Origin: Sutcliffiella sp. FSL R7-0096
GTDB taxonomy: Bacteria > Bacillota > Bacilli > Bacillales > Bacillaceae_I
Length of the DNA stretch: 64,000 bases
Assembly (NCBI RefSeq): GCF_038595065.1
Contig: NZ_CP152003.1
Coordinates: forward strand, 3,824,001 to 3,888,000
Direction: 5' to 3'
Positions 12,904 through 59,510 of this stretch are shown here, in pieces. The notes beneath the pieces are model-generated. The model saw only the letters and a list, made by a program, of their open reading frames with translations, ran no database searches and was not told the DNA's origin. The position numbers and the translations under genes are program-made. How positions within the stretch are numbered: position 1 is the first letter of the stretch; each line of letters starts with the position of its first letter.

Positions 12904-12914
12904 ATAATTGAAAA

Positions 12915-12944
12915 AGCAGCTGTCAGGTCTATCTGACAGCTGCT
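12915..12944 (+). terminator. Terminator hairpin, left copy of 30-bp duplication
   Basis: The perfect palindrome AGCAGCTGTCAG...CTGACAGCTGCT follows ggt. An identical 30-base copy lies at 13165-13194, on the other side of the 220-bp element. This copy is preceded by five A residues, so it keeps a T-run only for minus-strand transcripts coming from the gas vesicle operon. Confidence 0.85.
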
Positions 12945-13164
12945 TAGTGTGTAGACAAAGTTAATAATTATTCAAAATGATGAGATTCTCGTGTTGATCG
13001 TAGTGAAAGGCGCGAAGACTCCTGCGGGAGGAAGGGACAGGTAAGACCCCGCAGGAGTAAGCCGAGGAGGCTTACGGACCGCCCGCTGGAAAGCGAAGCG
13101 GCCTGGAACGAAGATCAACAGTTACTTTCAAATTTAAAAATATATAAGGTTTGTCAACAGTCTG
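12945..13164 (-). mobile_element. Structured 220-bp repeat element, copy A
   Basis: One of three related copies (others at 24018-24227 and 37514-37724); this one is inverted relative to them. Ends are CAGACTGTTGACAAA (at 13164) and TAGTGTGTAGACAAA (at 12945), imperfect terminal inverted repeats. Inside, GTTGATC and GATCAAC form subterminal arms around a GC-rich core with CTCCTGCGGG...CCCGCAGGAG pairing. It encodes no credible protein. It is flanked by an exact 30-bp direct duplication of the ggt terminator hairpin. This looks like a non-autonomous element (MITE-like) that inserted into the terminator and duplicated it. Confidence 0.8.
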
Positions 13165-13194
13165 AGCAGCTGTCAGGTCTATCTGACAGCTGCT
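13165..13194 (+). terminator. Terminator hairpin, right copy, with T-run
   Basis: Identical to 12915-12944 and followed by TTTTTTT, so this is the copy able to terminate plus-strand ggt transcripts after they have read through the inserted element. Confidence 0.85.
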
Positions 13195-13219
13195 TTTTTT
13201 GACTGAACATTTATCCCAG

Positions 13220-13615
13220 TCAGGAACCACTATCTGAAATCCTTCCTAAAAAGAAACCGTCTACTTCGCTTAGTTTCCCTCTCCAAAGGATTTTCCCTTC
13301 TGATGGCGTAGGTTTACTATCACCACAATAAACCTTCGTATTTTTTAGATGGATGAAATTAACTTCGGCGCCTTTATTAGAATCCACGCCTTCCCCTGCA
13401 TTTGCAAGTTGTTCACTTATTTTTTGGGCAATTTCATTTCCATCTTCAAAGGTTTCACTCATCGTTTCAAAATAATCTTTTGCCGGTATAAGAGTACCGG
13501 ATATTACAGCACCGTTTACGTTTAAGGTAATATCAAGTGAAAAACCGTGTCTATTGGCAGCTTGCACAAAGAACTCTAAAATACTGTCCTTTTTGGCACC
13601 AAGCTCACTATTCAT
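13220..13615 (-). CDS. gvpU: Gas vesicle protein GvpU, short paralogue
   Basis: A 131-residue GvpU-family protein, last gene of the gas vesicle operon. It aligns along its whole length with the first 128 residues of the preceding gene (13678-14388): both share DITLNVNGA, SETFEDG, FIHLK, VYCG/VFCG and LWRG-LSE. In P. megaterium GvpU is reported to control clustering of gas vesicles. This copy has essentially no tail and so resembles the classical length. The start has AAAGGGGAAG upstream. The tandem duplication is unusual. Which of the two is the functional equivalent of the single GvpU is unknown. Confidence 0.88.
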   Translation of the reverse strand: MNSELGAKKDSILEFFVQAANRHGFSLDITLNVNGAVISGTLIPAKDYFETMSETFEDGNEIAQKISEQLANAGEGVDSNKGAEVNFIHLKNTKVYCGDSKPTPSEGKILWRGKLSEVDGFFLGRISDSGS

Positions 13616-13677
13616 TCACAACTTCCCCTTTCTTAAGTTGAAAAGAAAGTCAGAGGGTTTCTGCTCCCTGTCTTGCC

Positions 13678-14388
13678 TTATTCAGCTTTAGCTGTCTTTT
13701 TAGATGATGAAGTTTTCTTTTTCGTTTTGGTAGAACTAGATTTAGTTCCTGAGCGCTTTTTCTCACTCTTTTCTTTATTTTCATCATCCTTGGCATTGTC
13801 TTTCTTTGAATCTTGTTTTTCTGCAGATTCTGATTCAACTTCGGATTCTTCGGACTTATCCTCTTCATCGTCATCATCATCATCAGGGCTAAGTTGTGTT
13901 ATCATCTCTTCCAACTTTGCTATACGATCTGTGAGTTTACCGTTTTTCTCTTTTAATGATTGATAGTCACTATTATCATCGGAATCTTCATCCTCTTCCC
14001 CGCTGTCTGTGAAATCATCTAAAAAGAAGCCATTAATCTCGCTTAGCGGTCCTCTCCAAAGAGCTGATCCTTTAGAAGGGGATGGTTTACTGCTCCCACA
14101 AAATACTTTAGCATCCTTAAGATGGATGAAACTTGCTTCAGCCTCTTCCCCTGAATCAATGGATTCTCCTGCTTGAGCAAACTTTTCACTAAGTTGTTGA
14201 GCCACATCACTGCCGTCTTCAAAGGTTTCACTCAAACTAACGAAGTATTCTTTGGCTGAAACTATAGTTCCTGTAACAATGGCACCATTTACATTCAATG
14301 TGATATCGATAGAAAGATTATGTTTATTCGTTGCCTGGACAAGGAAAGCAAGAATGTTATCTTTCCCTGCCGATTGCTCATTAGTCAT
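13678..14388 (-). CDS. GvpU paralogue with acidic/basic C-terminal tail
   Basis: A 236-residue protein with three parts. Residues 1-128 are a GvpU domain similar to the next gene. Residues 142-166 are a heptad-like segment (YQSLKEKNGKLTDRIAKLEEM) almost the same as one in GvpT. A low-complexity tail follows that is first acidic (168-200, runs of Asp/Glu/Ser) and then basic (200-236, Lys/Ser/Thr). The tail looks disordered and polyampholytic. Given the reported role of GvpU in vesicle clustering, it may tune or drive condensation, but that is inference. RBS AAAGGGAG; the gene begins 22 bases after gvpT ends. Confidence 0.88.
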   Translation of the reverse strand: MTNEQSAGKDNILAFLVQATNKHNLSIDITLNVNGAIVTGTIVSAKEYFVSLSETFEDGSDVAQQLSEKFAQAGESIDSGEEAEASFIHLKDAKVFCGSSKPSPSKGSALWRGPLSEINGFFLDDFTDSGEEDEDSDDNSDYQSLKEKNGKLTDRIAKLEEMITQLSPDDDDDDEEDKSEESEVESESAEKQDSKKDNAKDDENKEKSEKKRSGTKSSSTKTKKKTSSSKKTAKAE

Positions 14389-14409: not shown

Positions 14410-15228
14410 TTAAGATGAAGTATCGTCATCACTGGAAAGAGTGGTTTCATTGCTCTCTTTATCTTTTTTCTTCTTAGAAGACTTTTTAGCTGTAGAACGT
14501 TTCTTTTTTGGTTTACTTTTCTTTCCCTTTTCATCATCCTTACTATCATCTTTCTCTTCTGTATCGTCTTCCTCTTCGTCCTCTGATTCTTCCTCGCTAT
14601 CCTCTTCTTTATCTTCTTCGCTGTCTTCCTCACTATCCTCTTCGTTGTCTTCTTCGCTATCCTCTTCCTTTTCTTCTTTGCTGTCTTCTTCGCTATCCTC
14701 TTCGCTGTCTTCTTCGGAGCTATTGGCTGTTTCTTTATCTTCCGTTAATTTTGTCAGCATTTCCTCCAACTTTCCTAGTCGATCGGTAAGGTTTTTATTT
14801 TCCTTCTTCAAGGATTCGTAATCTTCATTTGTGGAGTCCTTTGTAGACTCTTTTGATGCAGCAACCTCTTTCTCACTCGAAGCATCTTCATTGGAAGTTT
14901 CATTTTCATTTTCGGACTCATCTTCACTCGTTTCCTCATCCTCTTTATTAAATAGACCTTTTGCTGAACTTTTGATAGAATCATAAGCTTTCTTGGATTT
15001 TTCCTTGGCTGTTTCTCCAAAACTAGAACTCTTAGATTTAAGCGCCTCGGTATCAATACTATCCATTAGTTTTTTCCCGTTCTCAGGAGTAGCTAAATAA
15101 CCGACTGTTGCCCCGATAATTCCTCCTGCAATGGAACGAGTAATTGGACCTGCAAATGACGTTTCTTCCTTATTTGTGTTTTGTTCCTCTGTTTGATTTT
15201 CTGTAGTGTTTGTTTTGTTTTCTGCCAT
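14410..15228 (-). CDS. gvpT: Gas vesicle protein GvpT with very long acidic tail
   Basis: The 272-residue product has a glycine-rich YtxH-like segment near 30-55 (SIAGGIIGATVGYLATPENG) related to that of GvpP, and a coiled coil at about 137-162 (YESLKKENKNLTDRLGKLEE). A Glu/Asp/Ser repeat tract at about 168-228 and a Lys-rich stretch at 229-260 follow. The acidic tract comes from a degenerate DNA repeat around GAAGA/CGAAGAGGA units (14560-14720), which could vary in length. GvpT is an accessory of Bacillus-type gas vesicle clusters with no settled function. The tail architecture is shared with the adjacent long GvpU paralogue. RBS AGGAGG. Confidence 0.85.
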   Translation of the reverse strand: MAENKTNTTENQTEEQNTNKEETSFAGPITRSIAGGIIGATVGYLATPENGKKLMDSIDTEALKSKSSSFGETAKEKSKKAYDSIKSSAKGLFNKEDEETSEDESENENETSNEDASSEKEVAASKESTKDSTNEDYESLKKENKNLTDRLGKLEEMLTKLTEDKETANSSEEDSEEDSEEDSKEEKEEDSEEDNEEDSEEDSEEDKEEDSEEESEDEEEDDTEEKDDSKDDEKGKKSKPKKKRSTAKKSSKKKKDKESNETTLSSDDDTSS

Positions 15229-15255: not shown

Positions 15256-15588
15256 TTAGTAGTTGAATTCAGTTGAATTTATTCGATTTGTACTTAGCTT
15301 TTTTTCAAGAGATTCAAGTCTCTCGTGTAACATTTTATTTTCCTCTTCCAATGCTTTGGTGTTGTTATCTACCGCTTTAGAGCTTAGGTAAGGATCAGTT
15401 TCCCACCAATCCATGCCAATCTCTTTCGCTTTATCAACAGATGCGACAATCAGTCGTATCTTGATGGTCAATAGCTCCACATCTGCGATACCCACTGTGA
15501 TGTCACCGGCGATTACGACACCTTTGTCTAGTATTTTCTCAAGCACATCCACTATCGTACTTGATTGTCCAGTCGTTTGAACTGCCAT
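15256..15588 (-). CDS. gvpJ: Gas vesicle protein GvpJ
   Basis: A minor GvpA-like structural or nucleation protein of 110 residues. Residues 10-55 follow the GvpA fold (VLEKILDKGVVIAGDITVGIADVELLTIKIRLIVASVD). The C-terminus adds a coiled-coil segment, ALEEENKMLHERLESLEKKL (78-98), resembling those in GvpP, GvpT and the long GvpU. GvpJ is thought to occur at vesicle tips in other systems. RBS AAGGAGGG precedes the ATG. There is a 208-base gap to gvpK upstream with no gene seen in it. Confidence 0.9.
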   Translation of the reverse strand: MAVQTTGQSSTIVDVLEKILDKGVVIAGDITVGIADVELLTIKIRLIVASVDKAKEIGMDWWETDPYLSSKAVDNNTKALEEENKMLHERLESLEKKLSTNRINSTEFNY

Positions 15589-15796: not shown

Positions 15797-16081
15797 TTAT
15801 AGCAAGCTTCCTAGTGGTCCTAGGTCCAGATTCAAGTCGTCTGCATCAAGGCCGAAAATATCTTTTAGTTCTTCCATCTTTTCTTCCAGATTCATCAAAG
15901 CTTCGCCTAAATCTTCAATCTGGTCATCGGTCAGCGTTCCGCCTTCCACGCGTCGCATGGCATGGCGTTCCACGATTTGTCTCAGAAGTTCCACCACAGT
16001 AAGGACAAGTTGAGCTAATCCATGTTCTGCTTTATCAGGATCCAAATTAATTCTTCCACTTGTCGGGTTGGCCGGTTGCAT
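15797..16081 (-). CDS. gvpK: Gas vesicle protein GvpK
   Basis: A 94-residue GvpK with the family core NLDPDKAEHGLAQLVLTVVELLRQIVERHAMRR-type helix and a GLxxLxE-like C-terminus ending LNLDLGPLGSLL. It is an accessory protein needed for vesicle formation. The start codon at 16081 lies inside gvpS (35-base overlap) and has its own strong AAGGGAGGG site, pointing to translational coupling. Confidence 0.92.
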   Translation of the reverse strand: MQPANPTSGRINLDPDKAEHGLAQLVLTVVELLRQIVERHAMRRVEGGTLTDDQIEDLGEALMNLEEKMEELKDIFGLDADDLNLDLGPLGSLL

Positions 16082-16322
16082 GTATTAATCCCTCCCTTTG
16101 GTTATCAAATTCTATGGAAGATACCGTTTTGCCATTTCCCTGCTTTGCCTGTACAAGGGATTCTACAGATGCAATCAAGACACGAAGATCCAAGTAAACA
16201 AGATCAACACCCGCTATGGAAATGACTAAATCCGCTTTTATTGCCACACCTTTATCAAGTATGACGTCTAAAATATCTATTAAAGCTATATCCTTATTTT
16301 CTATCGATTCTCTATGGGACAT
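16047..16322 (-). CDS. gvpS: Gas vesicle protein GvpS (GvpA-like)
   Basis: A 91-residue GvpA-family paralogue: IDILDVILDKGVAIKADLVISIAGVDLVYLDLRVLIASVES matches the amphipathic GvpA core, with a divergent C-terminus. In P. megaterium it belongs to the minimal accessory set. It overlaps gvpK by 35 bases and starts 17 bases after gvpL ends. Confidence 0.9.
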   Translation of the reverse strand: MSHRESIENKDIALIDILDVILDKGVAIKADLVISIAGVDLVYLDLRVLIASVESLVQAKQGNGKTVSSIEFDNQREGLIHATGQPDKWKN

Positions 16323-16338
16323 AAATAGTCATCCTCAC

Positions 16339-17145
16339 TTATGAAAAGCTTGAAAAGTGATAAGCAGGCCATGGCCCGGTCGGTTCAAACTGCCAGCCCA
16401 TCTCCCCCATTTTCTTTTCAAATTGCTGGATTTCTTCTAAAAACTGTTCCACTTTTGAGGATGAGATAAGATAGACGCTATTCCAGGTCATGTTTTCTTT
16501 CCTACCTGTCACATCTTTGCTCCAATTCCTCTTTACGTTCCCTTGCAAAACAAATTCCTTAAGATGTGTATGGATTCTTTCACTCACACGATCCTTTTCA
16601 TTCTCCACTTCATCCTCAATCAATTTATCGAGTTTTTTCTTTTCGAAGAATTGTTTCCCTTTAGATAAATGGCTGATTTCTTCTCTACGCTTCTCTATCG
16701 CGGGATTGCTCTGGCTTACTTGCTTCTTTAATAATTCATCATTGCAATATATTTTAAGATTCCATTCCTCATTGCCTTCTAGAAGCGCAAAAGTGTCTGT
16801 CATCTTGGAATGATTTTGCTGAACAATATCTATTAATCTAGTTTCATTTTTATATAACGTACAAAACTTTAAAGGTATTACAGTATACAATTTCGATAAT
16901 CCCATTACTGTTTCATGATGATGAAATGCTTTTTCCTGTAGCCATTCCATATCACCATTGATTTTCTCTTTGATGATTTCCTCTGAATACTCTTTTGCAT
17001 CCAATTTACATACAATAGCGGTTATTTCCCCTATTGATATGGTGTATATATCACCTTTTCCATCAAAACCTTTCATGGATGGAACAGGCAGGCTTACTGA
17101 TTCATTAGATGGGATTAACCCATATAAATAAATTAATTCCCCCAT
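16339..17145 (-). CDS. gvpL: Gas vesicle protein GvpL (GvpL/F family)
   Basis: A 268-residue GvpL/GvpF-family protein, beginning MGELIYLYGLIPSNE. It carries typical family segments: VIPLKFCTLYKNE near 90, a central helical region rich in Glu/Lys, and the C-terminal FEPTGPWPAYHFSSF, the conserved GPWPxYxF motif shared with GvpF. The family is thought to chaperone or nucleate GvpA assembly. It follows gvpG by 10 bases. RBS GAGGG. Confidence 0.93.
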   Translation of the reverse strand: MGELIYLYGLIPSNESVSLPVPSMKGFDGKGDIYTISIGEITAIVCKLDAKEYSEEIIKEKINGDMEWLQEKAFHHHETVMGLSKLYTVIPLKFCTLYKNETRLIDIVQQNHSKMTDTFALLEGNEEWNLKIYCNDELLKKQVSQSNPAIEKRREEISHLSKGKQFFEKKKLDKLIEDEVENEKDRVSERIHTHLKEFVLQGNVKRNWSKDVTGRKENMTWNSVYLISSSKVEQFLEEIQQFEKKMGEMGWQFEPTGPWPAYHFSSFS

Positions 17146-17155
17146 ATCCTAACCC

Positions 17156-17410
17156 TCACTTCTTTTTGGTCAACTGCTCCCATTGTTCCATTTCCAAATT
17201 CTTGGCTACTTCGTAACGGTGCAACAGTTCTGCTTCCTTCTCTTTATACGCTTCATCCGGAATTTCACCTAATTCATACATCATCTGTAACTGAATGAGC
17301 TTTTTTTGAATGGTTGGAAGGTCATACAGTTCTTTGTCCGCTTCCTCTTTTACTTTCTCGCCGATCTTAATGACAAGATTGATAGGTGCAGATATTAATT
17401 TATGGAGCAT
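17156..17410 (-). CDS. gvpG: Gas vesicle protein GvpG
   Basis: An 84-residue helical GvpG accessory protein starting MLHKLISAPINLVIKIGEKV. The central LYDLPTIQKKLIQLQMMYELGEIPDEAYKEKE segment is the family hallmark. The start codon abuts the gvpF stop, so translation is probably coupled. Confidence 0.93.
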   Translation of the reverse strand: MLHKLISAPINLVIKIGEKVKEEADKELYDLPTIQKKLIQLQMMYELGEIPDEAYKEKEAELLHRYEVAKNLEMEQWEQLTKKK

Positions 17411-18178
17411 TTAAGCACCCTCGACTGTTAATCTGATATTGACAAAGTTGTAGGCCGGCCATGGACCACTGTAATTGAAATCGACCTTATCCTTCCACTT
17501 TTCATGAGCTTCATTTACTTTCTCATCAAACTCCGCTTCCTTTTCCCTATCAATTAAAAAGGAGGCATTCAACAGCATTTTCTCACCAATAGGATCATTT
17601 ACCTTCGATGCTTCCGCTGTTTCCTTTAATGGTTGAAAAATTTCTGCTTGCATTTCTTCTTGGAGGGATTGGAAAAGCTTTTGAGCTGCCTCACCTAACT
17701 GGATTCGCTCATAATAACTGGCTGCTTCTGATTTCCCTCGGACCGTCTCCGCCATTTTCCCCATTTTTTCATTGCCACTAGCCAATTCTTCCAACCATTC
17801 CTTTTTCCCAATTAGTTTTAAGCCCAATTCGATTTTTCCTTTGATAGCTGGGAAAAGTTTCTCGAATTGAGGATATAAGTTTTCAAGCAGGACGGCTACA
17901 TCTTCTCTTGAATGAAAAACATTACCGAAGCTTACAGGAATGACGGTATCGTTTTGTTTCATCACAAGTGATATGGCTTGTTGATGCATCATCAAATTTT
18001 CCTTATTCGGATGGTAGATTTTCATTGGCACCTCTGCAGCCACCATGGCAGAGTCCTTATACGAAATCGTGAAGAGCTCTCTTCGCTCTCCTTCCAGTTC
18101 AATATGTCCGAATTCCTCTTCCGCATCTGTCTGAATTCCACAGATGATATATATACCCATTTTCTCTTCTTGGCTCAT
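17411..18178 (-). CDS. gvpF: Gas vesicle protein GvpF
   Basis: A 255-residue GvpL/F-family protein with MGIYIICGI near the N-terminus, VIPVSFGNVF near 100 and the C-terminal FNYSGPWPAYNFVNIRL motif shared with GvpL. GvpF is a GvpA-binding accessory or structural protein. The ATG at 18178 has AAAGGAG ten bases upstream. It follows gvpN by 17 bases. Confidence 0.93.
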   Translation of the reverse strand: MSQEEKMGIYIICGIQTDAEEEFGHIELEGERRELFTISYKDSAMVAAEVPMKIYHPNKENLMMHQQAISLVMKQNDTVIPVSFGNVFHSREDVAVLLENLYPQFEKLFPAIKGKIELGLKLIGKKEWLEELASGNEKMGKMAETVRGKSEAASYYERIQLGEAAQKLFQSLQEEMQAEIFQPLKETAEASKVNDPIGEKMLLNASFLIDREKEAEFDEKVNEAHEKWKDKVDFNYSGPWPAYNFVNIRLTVEGA

Positions 18179-18195
18179 GTTAAGACTCTCCTTTA

Positions 18196-19110
18196 TTACT
18201 CAGTGACCTCCATATTTTCACAGGCCTTTATTATCAATTTTTCTGCGTCTTTCAACGGCTGTTCACTATCCAGGCATCTGCCCAATGGATGTCCCAGAAT
18301 ATCCAAGCAAAGCCGCTTGAAATCCTCATTATCCCCGTCTATTGGAATATCTCCCTCCGATGCCAGCTTTGCTATCATCAGGGATGCACGTAAACTAGGA
18401 CCATTCTTATCGCATTCTTTACGAAGCTCTGCTACAAGACCAGTAATGGCTTTCGCTTCTCCTTCTTTCATATCGACTTTCTGGGAAACGATCTTTGCCT
18501 CCCTATCCACCTCTTTATAATCAACATGGATGGTAATCAGCCGGTCCAGCAAAGCATCCTGTGTATGAAAAACCCCAGCATATTCATCAGGGTTGCTCGT
18601 AAAGATTACTGCAAAGTCCGGGTGAACGGGTACAAAGGGTTCCGTCAGTTTAGATCCATATAGTGGAAGAACCCCTTCCTCCAAAATAGAAAGAAAGATA
18701 TTGTTTGTCGTTGGTTGAGACCTAGTAAATTCATCGTACACTAGCGTGTATCCATTTTTCACGGCCTCCAATAAACGCCCGTCCTTCCAAGTTTCTGTCA
18801 CATTTTCCTCTTTCTTATAGACGGAACGGATATAGTTATCTACAACCTTTTTCCGTGAATAACCAGTAAAATCACCTATTAAATCCTTATTGTTCAACTC
18901 ATGATTTCCGTGTATGAGCATAACAGGCTTTTTCCTTTTCTTTGCAAGAGCGAGTGCCATGGAAGTTTTACCTGCACCAGAAGGGCCTGTAAAATGAATA
19001 GGGTATCCGGCCTTTAGATATTGCAGTGAGCGAGAAAGCAAATCTTTCGTTTCTGAATCTTGAATTAGTGCCCTTGGATCTTTCTTTATTTTTTCTTTTA
19101 AAACCGTCAC
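18196..19110 (-). CDS. gvpN: Gas vesicle AAA+ ATPase GvpN
   Basis: A 304-residue MoxR-like AAA+ ATPase that promotes vesicle growth beyond small bicones in other organisms. Walker A is GPSGAGKTS at 42-50, Walker B LVYDEF near 138, sensor 1 IFTSNPDEYAG near 190 and an LLDRL arginine-finger region near 205. All key residues are present. It lies between gvpR and gvpF within the operon. Confidence 0.95.
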   Translation of the reverse strand: MTVLKEKIKKDPRALIQDSETKDLLSRSLQYLKAGYPIHFTGPSGAGKTSMALALAKKRKKPVMLIHGNHELNNKDLIGDFTGYSRKKVVDNYIRSVYKKEENVTETWKDGRLLEAVKNGYTLVYDEFTRSQPTTNNIFLSILEEGVLPLYGSKLTEPFVPVHPDFAVIFTSNPDEYAGVFHTQDALLDRLITIHVDYKEVDREAKIVSQKVDMKEGEAKAITGLVAELRKECDKNGPSLRASLMIAKLASEGDIPIDGDNEDFKRLCLDILGHPLGRCLDSEQPLKDAEKLIIKACENMEVTE

Positions 19111-19135
19111 TCCATTCCCTCCTACTCACTGCGTG

Positions 19136-19402
19136 CTATCCCTCGTGTTTAATGGAACTTCTATACCTGATATCGCGCCTTTTATATGAAACGACCTCTT
19201 TGTCTTTGTTTAAATGGACGTCATATATACCGAGCATTTCATCTTTTGCGTACTTTTTCATGTATTCTTTTTCTTCAATCACTTCCACTGTAAGCTTCCA
19301 TCCTTCGTTTTCACTTTCTTCAACGGAGGTGATTTTATGAAGGGGGGCGACAAATTCGTTGAAGAAATCAGCGACATTCCCCATTATTTTTTTGATTTCC
19401 AT
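19136..19402 (-). CDS. gvpR: Gas vesicle protein GvpR (GvpO family)
   Basis: The 88-residue protein from the ATG at 19402 (MEIKKIMGNVADFFNEF) is preferred, because AGGAGG lies just before it; an in-frame ATG at 19417 lacks a site. The segment GWKLTVEVIEEKEYMKKYAKDEMLGIYDVHLNKDKEVVSYKRRDIRYRS is typical of the GvpO/GvpR family. Its function is accessory and poorly defined. It follows gvpB by 67 bases. Confidence 0.88.
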   Translation of the reverse strand: MEIKKIMGNVADFFNEFVAPLHKITSVEESENEGWKLTVEVIEEKEYMKKYAKDEMLGIYDVHLNKDKEVVSYKRRDIRYRSSIKHEG

Positions 19403-19469
19403 ATGGACCTCCTGCATAAATAGAAGGGAAAGCCTGGGAAATATCCCCTGGCTGTTCCCATTCTAATAT

Positions 19470-19730
19470 CTAAATACTAAAGCGTGGACTTCGTTCATTT
19501 TGCTGCTCAGGTAGCCCGTTTTCTTCTACTTCATCACGAAGTAATCCCACTGCTTCTGCGTAACGTAACCATGTGTCAACGCTGGCAATGACCACCCTTG
19601 CCTCTACCGTCAGGATTTCAATTCCTACTACTGAAACCCTAACAAAGGCGTCAATGACAATCCCTTTATCTAATATACGGTCAATAACCTCTGCTAAACT
19701 TGAACTGTCTGTACTTTTTTGAACGGACAT
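19470..19730 (-). CDS. gvpB: Major gas vesicle structural protein, second copy (GvpB)
   Basis: An 86-residue GvpA-family shell protein. Its first 67 residues are nearly identical to GvpA at 20755-21009 (one substitution, VSVVG against VSLVG); the C-terminal 18 residues diverge ([19 protein letters not shown]). The GvpA core [16 protein letters not shown]...[29 protein letters not shown] is intact. It forms the hydrophobic-inside gas-permeable wall. RBS AAAGGAG. Confidence 0.96.
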
Positions 19731-19755
19731 CCATCATTTCTCCTTTCATCATTCA

Positions 19756-20205
19756 TCAAGACCCCATTGTCTTAATGTCATTTGAGGATTTGATATTTTT
19801 TGAGCTTTTGATATTAGTGGCACCTTTCATGTCGGTGTAGGTTTTGATGCTCTTTACACCTTTTACTTTGCGGTCATCATCATCTTCTTTAGTCGAGGAT
19901 ATCTTCTCTTGGAAGTCCTCTCCCGCTTCAACGACTTTCCCAATCTTGTCACGAACAGAAAGTAAAGCATCTTGTGCTTTTTCTTTTCCTTCTTCTGCCT
20001 TGTCTTCGAACTGTACAGCTTTTTCTTCTGTCGCTTCCTTCAGGTTCTCTGTAGCATCCTCGGCCTTTTCTTGAATACCGCCAATGAATTTTTCTTTCGC
20101 TTTTTCTTTGACTTTATCTTTGATTTCCTCTTTAATCGGCTCCGGAGTGTGTTCATACACCTTCTTTGCCGCCTTGCCTAATGTCTTTTTAATCTCTTTG
20201 CCCAT
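19756..20205 (-). CDS. gvpQ: Gas vesicle protein GvpQ
   Basis: A 149-residue lysine/glutamate-rich helical protein (KEKAKEKFIGGIQEKAEDATENLKEATEEKAVQFEDKAEEGKEKAQ) resembling LEA-like or coiled-coil proteins. Its C-terminus contains the near-repeat TNIKSSKNIKSSNDIKTMGS. Its position between gvpP and gvpB matches GvpQ of P. megaterium. Function unknown; it may be a stabilising or scaffold protein. RBS AAAGGTGG. Confidence 0.85.
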   Translation of the reverse strand: MGKEIKKTLGKAAKKVYEHTPEPIKEEIKDKVKEKAKEKFIGGIQEKAEDATENLKEATEEKAVQFEDKAEEGKEKAQDALLSVRDKIGKVVEAGEDFQEKISSTKEDDDDRKVKGVKSIKTYTDMKGATNIKSSKNIKSSNDIKTMGS

Positions 20206-20242
20206 CCAATTACCACCTTTGGATTCATTGAAAGAGGTCTAG

Positions 20243-20677
20243 TTATTTCTTAGAATCCACTAATTCACTCAGCATGCTTTCTATCTTATCGAGTCGATTA
20301 TTTATATTTTTGTTTTCTTCCTTTATTTCTTCCAATTCGGAAGATGAGTTATCGTCTTTAGCATCCTTCTTTTCATTACTTTTTGTTGGATTTAATAGGC
20401 TCATCACATTTTTACCCATATAACCTGAGGCCAACTGCTTGATCCCATTTTGCGCCTGTGCAGCAAGCATCTCTTGGGCCGATCTTCTTAATTGATTACC
20501 AGCAACCTTCACTACTTCTGATTCACTGATATTTTTATAAAGCTTTTTACTTGTGCCTGGGCTGGAAAGTAAACCAATACCTGCACCTACAACTCCTCCC
20601 ACAATAGCTAAATTGATAGAGTAATTGCCATTATCATTCTTTTCTTCTTGCTGTTCGTTTTTCTCTTTAACTGTCAT
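20243..20677 (-). CDS. gvpP: Gas vesicle protein GvpP (YtxH-like with coiled coil)
   Basis: A 144-residue product if started at the ATG at 20677 (MTVKEKNEQQ), which has GAGGTTGG upstream; longer in-frame starts at 20692 and 20716 are less well supported. A glycine-zipper hydrophobic segment (INLAIVGGVVGAGIGLLSSPGTSKKLY, about 21-47) is related to one in GvpT. The C-terminus is a coiled coil (LEEIKEENKNINNRLDKIESML, 115-136) of the type also seen in GvpJ, GvpT and the long GvpU. The segment suggests membrane or vesicle-surface association. Confidence 0.87.
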   Translation of the reverse strand: MTVKEKNEQQEEKNDNGNYSINLAIVGGVVGAGIGLLSSPGTSKKLYKNISESEVVKVAGNQLRRSAQEMLAAQAQNGIKQLASGYMGKNVMSLLNPTKSNEKKDAKDDNSSSELEEIKEENKNINNRLDKIESMLSELVDSKK

Positions 20678-20754
20678 GTAAACCAACCTCATCCCTTCTG
20701 TGTGTAAATCTTGCATTTTATTTATGAGAATTATTATTTAGTGAAAATTGATGA

Positions 20755-21009
20755 TTAGAAGCTGAATTGACCTTCTTGATTTCTATTAGCCAAACCTTCT
20801 TCTTGGACTTCATCACGTAAAAGACCAACTGCTTCTGCGTACCTTAACCATGTATCCACACTTGCAATTACCACACGTGCTTCTACTGTAAGAATTTCGA
20901 TTCCTACCAATGAAACTCTTACAAATGCGTCAATCACGATTCCTTTATCAAGAATCCGATCAATTACTTCTGCTAGACTTGAACTGTCTGTACTTTTTTG
21001 AACACTCAT
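20755..21009 (-). CDS. gvpA: Major gas vesicle structural protein GvpA
   Basis: An 84-residue GvpA, first gene of the 15-gene gas vesicle operon on the minus strand. It contains the complete conserved amphipathic core (about 12-65) that polymerises into the ribbed vesicle wall, and a short divergent C-terminus ([17 protein letters not shown]). AAAGGAG lies ten bases before the ATG. The upstream 21010-21290 region holds the probable operon promoter. Confidence 0.97.
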
Positions 21010-58298: not shown

Positions 58299-59510
58299 AT
58301 GAAAACTAAATCTATTTTTATCGCAATGATGTTAGTAGTTTTTACATTCCTTGTTGGATGTAATTCAGATAACCAGGCTTCTGACGGCAGCGAAAAGCTA
58401 AATGTCTATACGACCATCTTCCCGTTGGAGGACTTTACAAAGAAAATTGGTGGTGAACATGTTGAGGTAACTTCCGTGTACCCACCTGGTGCCGATGCAC
58501 ATACTTTTGAACCTTCAACAAGAACGATGAGTGAAATGGCTTCAGCTGATGCTTTCATCTACTCAGGAGTTGGAGCGGAAGGATTTGCTGATAAGGCAAA
58601 AGGCGTTTTAGAAAACGAGGACGTAAAGGTTGTTGCGGCTGGTCATGGTATTGAGCTTCGTAGTGAGGATGATCACGATCATGAGGAAGAAGCTCACGGT
58701 GACGATCATGACCACGAGCATGAGGAAGAAGCCCACGGTGACGATCATGACCACGATCATGAGGAAGAAGCTCACAGTGACGACCATGATCACGAGCATG
58801 AGGAAGAAGCTCACGGTGACGATCATGACCACGATCATGAGGAAGAAGCTCACAGTGACGACCATGATCACGAGCATGAGGAAGAAGCTCACGGTGATGA
58901 CCATGACCACGAGCATGAGGAAGAAGCTCACAATGACGACCACGATCACGAGCATGAAGAAGATGGACACGAAGGTCACGACCATTCTGATGGAGACCCT
59001 CATGTATGGTTAGATCCAACTCTTTCCATTACTCTTGCTGAAAATATTAAAAAAGCTCTTGTTGAGTTAAAGCCAGAAGCAAAAGAGGACTTTGAGGCAA
59101 ATTTCGAAAAACTGAAAGCCGACCTCGAAGAATTAGATGCAGAATTCAAGGAAACAGTCGATACTGCAAACACGAACAAAATATTAGTTTCCCATGCAGC
59201 ATACGGTTACTGGGAGCACCGCTATGGATTGGAACAGATTAGCGTAACTGGCTTATCTCCAACCCAGGAGCCTTCTCAAAAACAACTGACTGAAATAATC
59301 AATACTGCAAAAGAAAATGAGATCAAATATGTCATCTTTGATCAGAACATCAGCGGCAAAATTGCAGAAGTCGTGAAGAATGAGATAAAGGCTGAAGCAC
59401 TAGTACTTCATAATTTAGAGGCAGTGACAGAAGAAGATGTTAATAACGAGGAAGATTATTTCAGCTTGATGCGTCAGAACTTAGAGACGTTGCAGAAGGC
59501 TTTGAATTAA
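58299..59510 (+). CDS. znuA: Zinc ABC transporter substrate-binding lipoprotein, His-rich
   Basis: A 403-residue ZnuA/AdcA-type binding protein. Lipobox FLVGC gives Cys near 21; the zinc ligands occur in ADAHTFEPS, DGDPHVWLDP and LVSHAAYGYWEHRYGL, and FDQNIS supplies the fourth position. Between them is a roughly 105-residue Asp/His/Glu loop built from 13-residue repeats (58668-58990), far longer than the usual His-rich loop of ZnuA. It captures Zn2+ for an ABC importer; no znuB or znuC is nearby. The start ATG 58299 has GAGGAG upstream; Zur-box controlled; own terminator. Confidence 0.93.
   Translation: MKTKSIFIAMMLVVFTFLVGCNSDNQASDGSEKLNVYTTIFPLEDFTKKIGGEHVEVTSVYPPGADAHTFEPSTRTMSEMASADAFIYSGVGAEGFADKAKGVLENEDVKVVAAGHGIELRSEDDHDHEEEAHGDDHDHEHEEEAHGDDHDHDHEEEAHSDDHDHEHEEEAHGDDHDHDHEEEAHSDDHDHEHEEEAHGDDHDHEHEEEAHNDDHDHEHEEDGHEGHDHSDGDPHVWLDPTLSITLAENIKKALVELKPEAKEDFEANFEKLKADLEELDAEFKETVDTANTNKILVSHAAYGYWEHRYGLEQISVTGLSPTQEPSQKQLTEIINTAKENEIKYVIFDQNISGKIAEVVKNEIKAEALVLHNLEAVTEEDVNNEEDYFSLMRQNLETLQKALN
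58668..58990 (+). repeat. 39-bp in-frame tandem repeat encoding His/Asp/Glu units
   Basis: Seven 39-base units plus a shorter first unit, each encoding DDHDHEHEEEAHG or variants (EH/DH, G/S/N at the end). The units alternate between two versions, so pairs of 78 bases are almost identical. This suggests recent expansion by slippage or unequal recombination. Confidence 0.9.

Follow-up and report, generated by a model that had tools for sequence, protein, structure and literature searches.

The gas vesicle (gvp) gene cluster of Sutcliffiella sp. FSL R7-0096 encodes two adjacent proteins of the GvpU family, one of which (GvpU2) extends beyond its GvpU domain into a tail carrying a GvpT-type coiled coil; this coil is specifically shared in Sutcliffiella, where it recurs in GvpT, GvpP and GvpJ. 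Judging from these sequences, we suggest, with a probability of about 0.5, that GvpU2 may act as a bridge linking a GvpU assembly to the GvpT/GvpP/GvpJ layers of vesicle clustering. Reports on the part of GvpU in gathering gas vesicles within the cell conflict. The initial annotation of this DNA took GvpU to control clustering, a view on which the literature is divided: a phase transition of GvpU controlling clustering was reported by Li et al. (2024), as related in the accessible parts of PMC11445434 and PMC10903477, but the effect could not be confirmed in PMC11223475, as far as the available text of that study goes.

The window, a stretch of 64,000 nucleotides from a genome of 4.9 Mb (genus Sutcliffiella), contains a gvp cluster on the minus strand with the full transcriptional order A2-P-Q-A1-R-N-F-G-L-S-K-J-T-U2-U1, in which gvpA1 and gvpA2 are our own labels. 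Its features are listed below in window coordinates; the segment borders within the GvpU2 tail are our own placement.

12914..12945, minus strand: terminator-like hairpin 3' of gvpU1, a consensus match only, such sites being fewer in the region than in shuffles
13220..13615, minus strand: gvpU1, canonical short GvpU of 131 aa, without coil (BLASTP, NCBIfam GvpU)
13678..14388, minus strand: gvpU2, tailed GvpU paralogue of 236 aa (BLASTP, NCBIfam GvpU)
14017..14388, minus strand: GvpU domain of gvpU2, residues 1-124 (NCBIfam GvpU match to residues 10-123)
13966..14016, minus strand: acidic linker of gvpU2, residues 125-141 (17 residues; from sequence)
13888..13965, minus strand: GvpT-type coiled coil of gvpU2, residues 142-167 (26 residues; coil profile, E 6.8e-9 in the whole genome)
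13771..13887, minus strand: acidic stretch of gvpU2, residues 168-206 (39 residues), net charge per residue -0.38
13681..13770, minus strand: basic Lys/Ser/Thr stretch of gvpU2, residues 207-236 (30 residues), net charge per residue +0.33
14410..15228, minus strand: gvpT, 272 aa, with coil, acidic run, basic run and C-terminal TTLSSDDDT (NCBIfam GvpT, 150 bits)
14740..14826, minus strand: GvpT coil (coil profile, E 2.4e-14, the window GvpT coil being one of the 22 profile rows)
15256..15588, minus strand: gvpJ, GvpA-like shell domain (Pfam Gas_vesicle) and C-terminal coil at 15292-15354 (E 8.0e-4)
15797..21009, minus strand: remaining gvp genes, in transcriptional order A2-P-Q-A1-R-N-F-G-L-S-K
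20243..20716, minus strand: gvpP, of the GvpT/GvpP family (NCBIfam, 88.7 bits), with coil at 20258-20338 (E 1.4e-4)

Shine-Dalgarno-like sequences precede the start codons of both gvpU2 and gvpU1. Just downstream of gvpU1, at 12915-13195, two identical 31-base copies of the terminator-like hairpin flank an interspersed repeat of about 200 bp; of 234 candidates for this repeat in the genome, 40 were scored and displayed 80-100% identity. A tandem array with a 39-base unit (7.6 copies) occupies 58669-58963, and one plus-strand frame through it reads as a His/Asp/Glu-rich repeat.

The presence of two adjacent GvpU-domain genes, as initially annotated, was borne out together with their coordinates: both lie on the minus strand, and their products share 74 of 123 aligned residues (60%; BLASTP, E 3e-51). 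Located at the end of the cluster, both exceed the curated cut-off of 70 bits for GvpU (NF041667), with 184.9 bits for GvpU1 and 158.3 bits for GvpU2. The tailed copy directly follows gvpT and is transcriptionally upstream of gvpU1, and it alone has the coiled coil, acidic run and basic run, the coil being absent from GvpU1. Most surveyed relatives have one short, coil-less GvpU, to which GvpU2 adds 112 residues of linker, coil, acidic and basic sequence. No convincing relative of GvpU was found by sequence in the PDB (best E 0.26).

Matches to the GvpU model are not confined to gvp clusters. The same genome encodes, at contig positions 625551-625916 (our locus L075, 7537-7965), a third GvpU-domain protein of 142 aa that is only distantly related (74.2 bits, cut-off 70); it is located away from the gvp cluster and beside transporter-like genes, and such a match is present in 12/16 genomes of the genus. 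A protein annotated as GvpU is encoded on a 5.6 kb mobilizable plasmid of Enterobacter roggenkampii (NZ_CP083856.1; L242, 2187-2627), adjoining a YafO-family toxin gene, and one Salinivibrio plasmid and one Calothrix plasmid yielded weaker or similar matches. These plasmid matches argue against GvpU being exclusive to Bacillota, as stated in the accessible part of PMC10903477.

A survey for two-GvpU arrangements, proposed with the initial annotation, was carried out on 397 genomes of the order: 99 had a GvpU-domain match, and in seven, that of the window included, two such matches were side by side within a gvp cluster. The pair is present in 11 genomes overall, the order gvpT-gvpU2-gvpU1 recurring in ten besides the window: five Sutcliffiella, three of Alkalihalophilus type, one Halalkalibacter and one MAG binned, under the label given, as 'Clostridiales'. 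On the contig of the MAG, found in a scan of 78 loci, the end of gvpT is followed by genes for a tailed GvpU (231 aa) and a short one. That the tail results from an assembly or frameshift error, which had been named as grounds for abandoning the idea, is practically excluded by the same intact arrangement in ten other genomes and by purifying selection on the tail. Of 41 genomes from the family to which Alkalihalophilus and Halalkalibacter belong, seven have GvpU and four have the pair; no further pair was found in samples of the phylum (398 genomes) or the class (398). In a third genus, the extended open frames of G199, G224 and G326 proved to be tailless. The hosts of the pair (L056-L061, L108-L110 and L224) belong to lineages regarded as alkaliphilic or alkali-tolerant, which is a hint only, because other alkaliphiles have a single GvpU.

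Among the 16 Sutcliffiella genomes searched, 14 have GvpA-type genes and six of these have the pair. The other eight all have a distinct, minimal cluster, Q-A-R-N-F-G-L-S-K-J, without P, T or U (L148-L153, L243 and L244), and kinship of the minimal and paired cluster types was rejected (AU p about 1e-97, with six of the eight minimal clusters in the tree).

The tail of GvpU2 repeats the plan of its upstream neighbour, GvpT, with the same order of coil, acidic run and basic run. GvpU2 does not reach the cut-off of 80 bits for the GvpT/GvpP family (NF041669), scoring 32.5 bits over residues 57-166, the coil included. This match was dropped as proof of kinship for the tail: YtxH-like proteins encoded away from the gvp genes score about 31 bits with the same model in every genome tried, and the kinship argument is therefore carried by a coil profile. 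The NCBIfam model also matches GvpJ (profile positions 93-121 of 123). The conserved C-terminal end of GvpT, TTLSSDDDT-like or TYLLL-like, is absent from all seven GvpU tails compared. In GvpT of ordinary length, the T, D, D and T positions of this end (window 14410-14450) show at least 90% conservation across 41 aligned sequences; a strict pattern for the motif is matched by 25/74, the remainder being mostly variants by eye, and long GvpT has the TYLLL-like end in place of the TTLSSDDDT-like one.

The coils of GvpT and GvpU2 are identical at 16/26 positions (BLASTP). Clusters lacking a GvpU pair supplied 38 coils labelled as GvpT for a profile, which was searched against 5642 ORFs from 81 regions that comprised both gas vesicle clusters and other loci. 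At a domain E<0.01, it matched GvpT (49/53, most of them training rows), GvpP (48/51), GvpJ (45/59), Sutcliffiella GvpU2 (6/6) and nothing else. The six Sutcliffiella coils have E-values of 1e-10 to 6e-9 and their tails score 34-40 bits, against a top score of 7.8 bits among 5000 shuffled tails (500 for each of ten tails, six from Sutcliffiella and four others). In the separate scan of 78 loci (7723 ORFs, E<0.01), partly from the same genomes, matches were obtained for GvpT (78/82), GvpP (65/69), GvpJ (64/76) and Sutcliffiella GvpU2 (3/3), and for no other labelled Gvp family; none of 81 GvpU ORFs labelled short matched, four of these being tailed copies from outside Sutcliffiella, and two unlabelled ORFs did, a GvpT-like fragment and an unrelated ORF at E 0.005. 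In the whole genome of the window strain, a 22-row profile that includes the window GvpT coil found the coils of GvpT, GvpU2, GvpP and GvpJ at the E-values listed above, the next place being at E 0.22. Across 25 genomes (E<=0.1), 37 of 39 matches fell, when assigned by coordinates within gvp clusters, in GvpT (11), GvpP (11), GvpU2 (8) and GvpJ (7); the 14 genomes without a coil match also lack a GvpT/GvpP match above the curated cut-off. Generic coiled coils do not explain these matches, because they are almost confined to the four proteins. A sub-threshold Pfam match of the GvpU2 coil to GreA_GreB_N (E 0.00095, 19.8 versus 24.5 bits) is a generic coiled-coil likeness.

Tailed copies outside Sutcliffiella keep the plan of the tail, with shorter coils and weak profile scores. 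Their five tails reach 10.4-13.2 bits (E 0.03-0.21), singly not significant, and lie above the best shuffle of 7.8 bits, the MAG tail not being among the tails shuffled; none of the four in the 78 loci matched at E<0.01, and two of four did so at E<=0.1 in the whole-genome search. A cluster of Priestia aryabhattai, closely akin to the B. megaterium system, has the coil in GvpT, GvpP and GvpJ, and not in GvpU. GvpJ of the eight minimal Sutcliffiella clusters gave no coil match at E<=0.1 in whole genomes and, in a small search, seven of the eight scored only 8-12 bits.

The four coils of the window follow one heptad register, which we set from sequence only, with N-(L/I)-(L/I) at the a positions and L/I at d throughout, except in GvpJ, where the last d is Asn. 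The core of GvpU2 reads N-I-I at a and L-L-L-L at d. Leucine zippers of the GCN4 type have Leu at d positions and one Asn at an a position, features shared by the gvp coils, and a core Asn at a is a classical mark of parallel two-stranded zippers. With its 4-3 heptads, hydrophobic a/d core and single core Asn, the GvpU2 coil conforms to the sequence pattern of a putative parallel dimeric leucine zipper. The gvp coils differ from GCN4-type zippers in having only about three and a half heptads, and their pairing is putative. The coil of GvpJ, a homologue of the shell protein, has the same register and core Asn as that of GvpU2 and differs from it in being joined to a GvpA-like shell domain, with no charged tail. 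A crude count of g-e' charges is equally mild for all coil pairs except J-J; it does not separate homodimers from heterodimers, and nothing in it forbids hetero-pairing.

The coil of GvpU2 is under purifying selection in Sutcliffiella. Among the GvpU2 of the six Sutcliffiella genomes, compared by simple counting over 15 pairs, dN/dS was 0.097 in the domain, 0.121 in the linker, 0.059 in the coil, 0.291 in the acidic part and 0.25 in the basic part, rough values given that synonymous sites are near saturation in the short segments. The coil is the most constrained segment of the tail, and its value is also below that of its own GvpU domain; the GvpT coil reached 0.023 and the GvpU1 domain 0.071. 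These values bear on whether GvpU2 is a redundant duplicate, neutral or relaxed, that gained its tail by recombination with gvpT and has no function of its own. Its domain evolves somewhat faster than that of GvpU1 in Sutcliffiella, and a sister-genus cluster (G001), like most relatives, has a single GvpU, as such a reading would have it; retention of GvpU2 in 11 genomes and a dN/dS well below 1 in every segment, if only roughly estimated, make it very unlikely.

The origin of the pair was addressed with trees of GvpU proteins and of clusters. Ninety GvpU ORFs were reduced to 88 by dropping fragments, and 30 more distant or non-gvp rows were then removed. The 88-row tree gives no resolution at the Sutcliffiella copies, and the 58- and 60-row trees do not join the two. 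The initial annotation spoke of a tandem duplication; the tandem arrangement fits that term, but a recent local duplication within Sutcliffiella is not favoured by these two trees, although not rejected (AU p 0.298, 58-row tree). Both trees group all tailed copies together, at low support values (82/85 in the 58-row tree, 69/89 in the 60-row tree). A first cluster tree placed the Alkalihalophilus/Halalkalibacter clusters beside those of Sutcliffiella and G001 (SH-aLRT 92); in a more careful tree, with other rows, without GvpQ and with three long-branched clusters left out, this grouping is absent, although not rejected (AU p 0.11). Between lineages, no more than 3-10 of 24 residues are shared by the GvpU2 coils, in line with coils that were either acquired separately or homogenised with the gvpT of the same cluster. 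Three of the six Sutcliffiella GvpU2 coils were compared, and these are nearest to Sutcliffiella GvpT coils (16-18/24 identical), with another GvpT tied for one of them. Recent copying of the gvpT coil as DNA is ruled out, because the two coils are only 63-68% identical in nucleotides in Sutcliffiella.

The charged part of the tail was the focus of the initial annotation, and its polyampholytic nature was confirmed. After the coil, the window tail has a fraction of charged residues (FCR) of 0.59 and a net charge per residue (NCPR) of -0.07, and its charges are segregated above its own shuffles (kappa about 0.33 versus 0.13, P = 0.002); it is a block polyampholyte, as a role in phase behaviour would need. 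Segregation was also above shuffles for the MAG tail (P=0.026), and was not significant for the GvpU tail of A. pseudofirmus (P=0.12). An internal repeat within the acidic part of the GvpU2 tail from a relative (L060) indicates that this part can vary freely in length, whereas the coil is kept. In the alternative initially put forward, the disordered charged tail would set phase behaviour, one copy would promote clustering and the other limit it, and the coil would be only a homodimeriser. The block pattern of the window and MAG tails is in keeping with this, as is the difference between the two GvpU domains at 40% of positions, but the A. pseudofirmus result is not, and the most constrained tail segment is the coil, of GvpT type, rather than the charged part. 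The idea of one copy driving and one limiting clustering found no support for either sign, and this alternative seems unlikely. The initial annotation missed the GvpT plan of the tail, in which the informative element is the coil common to GvpT, GvpP and GvpJ.

The interactions reported for B. megaterium place these coils in context. In the accessible text of PMC11445434, GvpT interacts with itself and gives a dimer band, GvpT contacts G and J, and GvpU contacts L and J. The shared zipper is a ready candidate for the T-T and T-J contacts, since GvpT, GvpP and GvpJ of Priestia have the coil and GvpU does not; it would not be needed for contact between GvpU and GvpJ, because the coil-less B. megaterium GvpU already interacts with GvpJ. 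GvpU2 looks like a GvpU given entry to the putative GvpT/GvpJ zipper network. No GvpU pair or shared coil is mentioned in the accessible parts of the literature surveyed, which included PMC11445434, PMC11223475, PMC10903477, PMC12695634 and PMC4586473, subscription literature being outside its scope; the coiled coils of haloarchaeal GvpF and GvpL and the possible leucine zipper in GvpE, described in the available text of PMC4586473, belong to other proteins.

In the bridging role that we favour, the GvpU domain of GvpU2 would enter the assembly to which the short, canonical GvpU1 also belongs, and the zipper would form in-register pairs, both between GvpU2 molecules and with the matching coils in GvpT, GvpP and GvpJ. 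The block-charged tail would add weak, salt-sensitive, multivalent contacts. The GvpU assembly would thus be coupled both to GvpT and to vesicles that bear GvpJ, and the tightness of vesicle clustering would change. For GvpU2 itself, we infer the helix, zipper pairing, choice of partners, disorder and effect on clustering, including its sign, from the protein sequence.

The zipper might instead serve assembly rather than clustering, with J, T, P and U2 meeting in early vesicle formation, for example at the cone tips. GvpJ, which has the coil, is a shell homologue called essential in the part of PMC11223475 available, and T and U are tied to the initiation stage through GvpJ in the accessible text of PMC11445434, which suggests that GvpJ may occupy the tips. 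B. megaterium does not, however, need T and U to form vesicles, according to the available text of PMC11223475, and all eight minimal Sutcliffiella clusters, putative vesicle producers, keep their ten other genes without P, T and U; a role in assembly is accordingly quite unlikely. A wider version of the bridging role is speculative and, on balance, doubtful: Bacillota gas vesicles might have a dedicated zipper code, with one interchangeable coil in GvpJ, GvpT and GvpP and with GvpU2 as a natural adaptor adding the GvpU condensate, in which case clustering would depend on specific zipper contacts (possibly at the tips), with charged tails as a tunable glue, and not on GvpU phase behaviour alone.

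Gas vesicles are used as ultrasound reporters, and their clustering affects the signal. Comparison with the minimal Sutcliffiella clusters offers a natural way to examine the contribution of P, T and U, and in GvpU2, next to a GvpU that has no tail, nature has itself set up a gain-of-tail experiment. The shared coil is a concrete, mutable candidate for the measured GvpT-GvpJ contacts and the GvpT dimer. As a variant of a known family, GvpU2 is real, conserved and under selection, and it is of interest chiefly for the zipper that it has in common with three other gas vesicle proteins.
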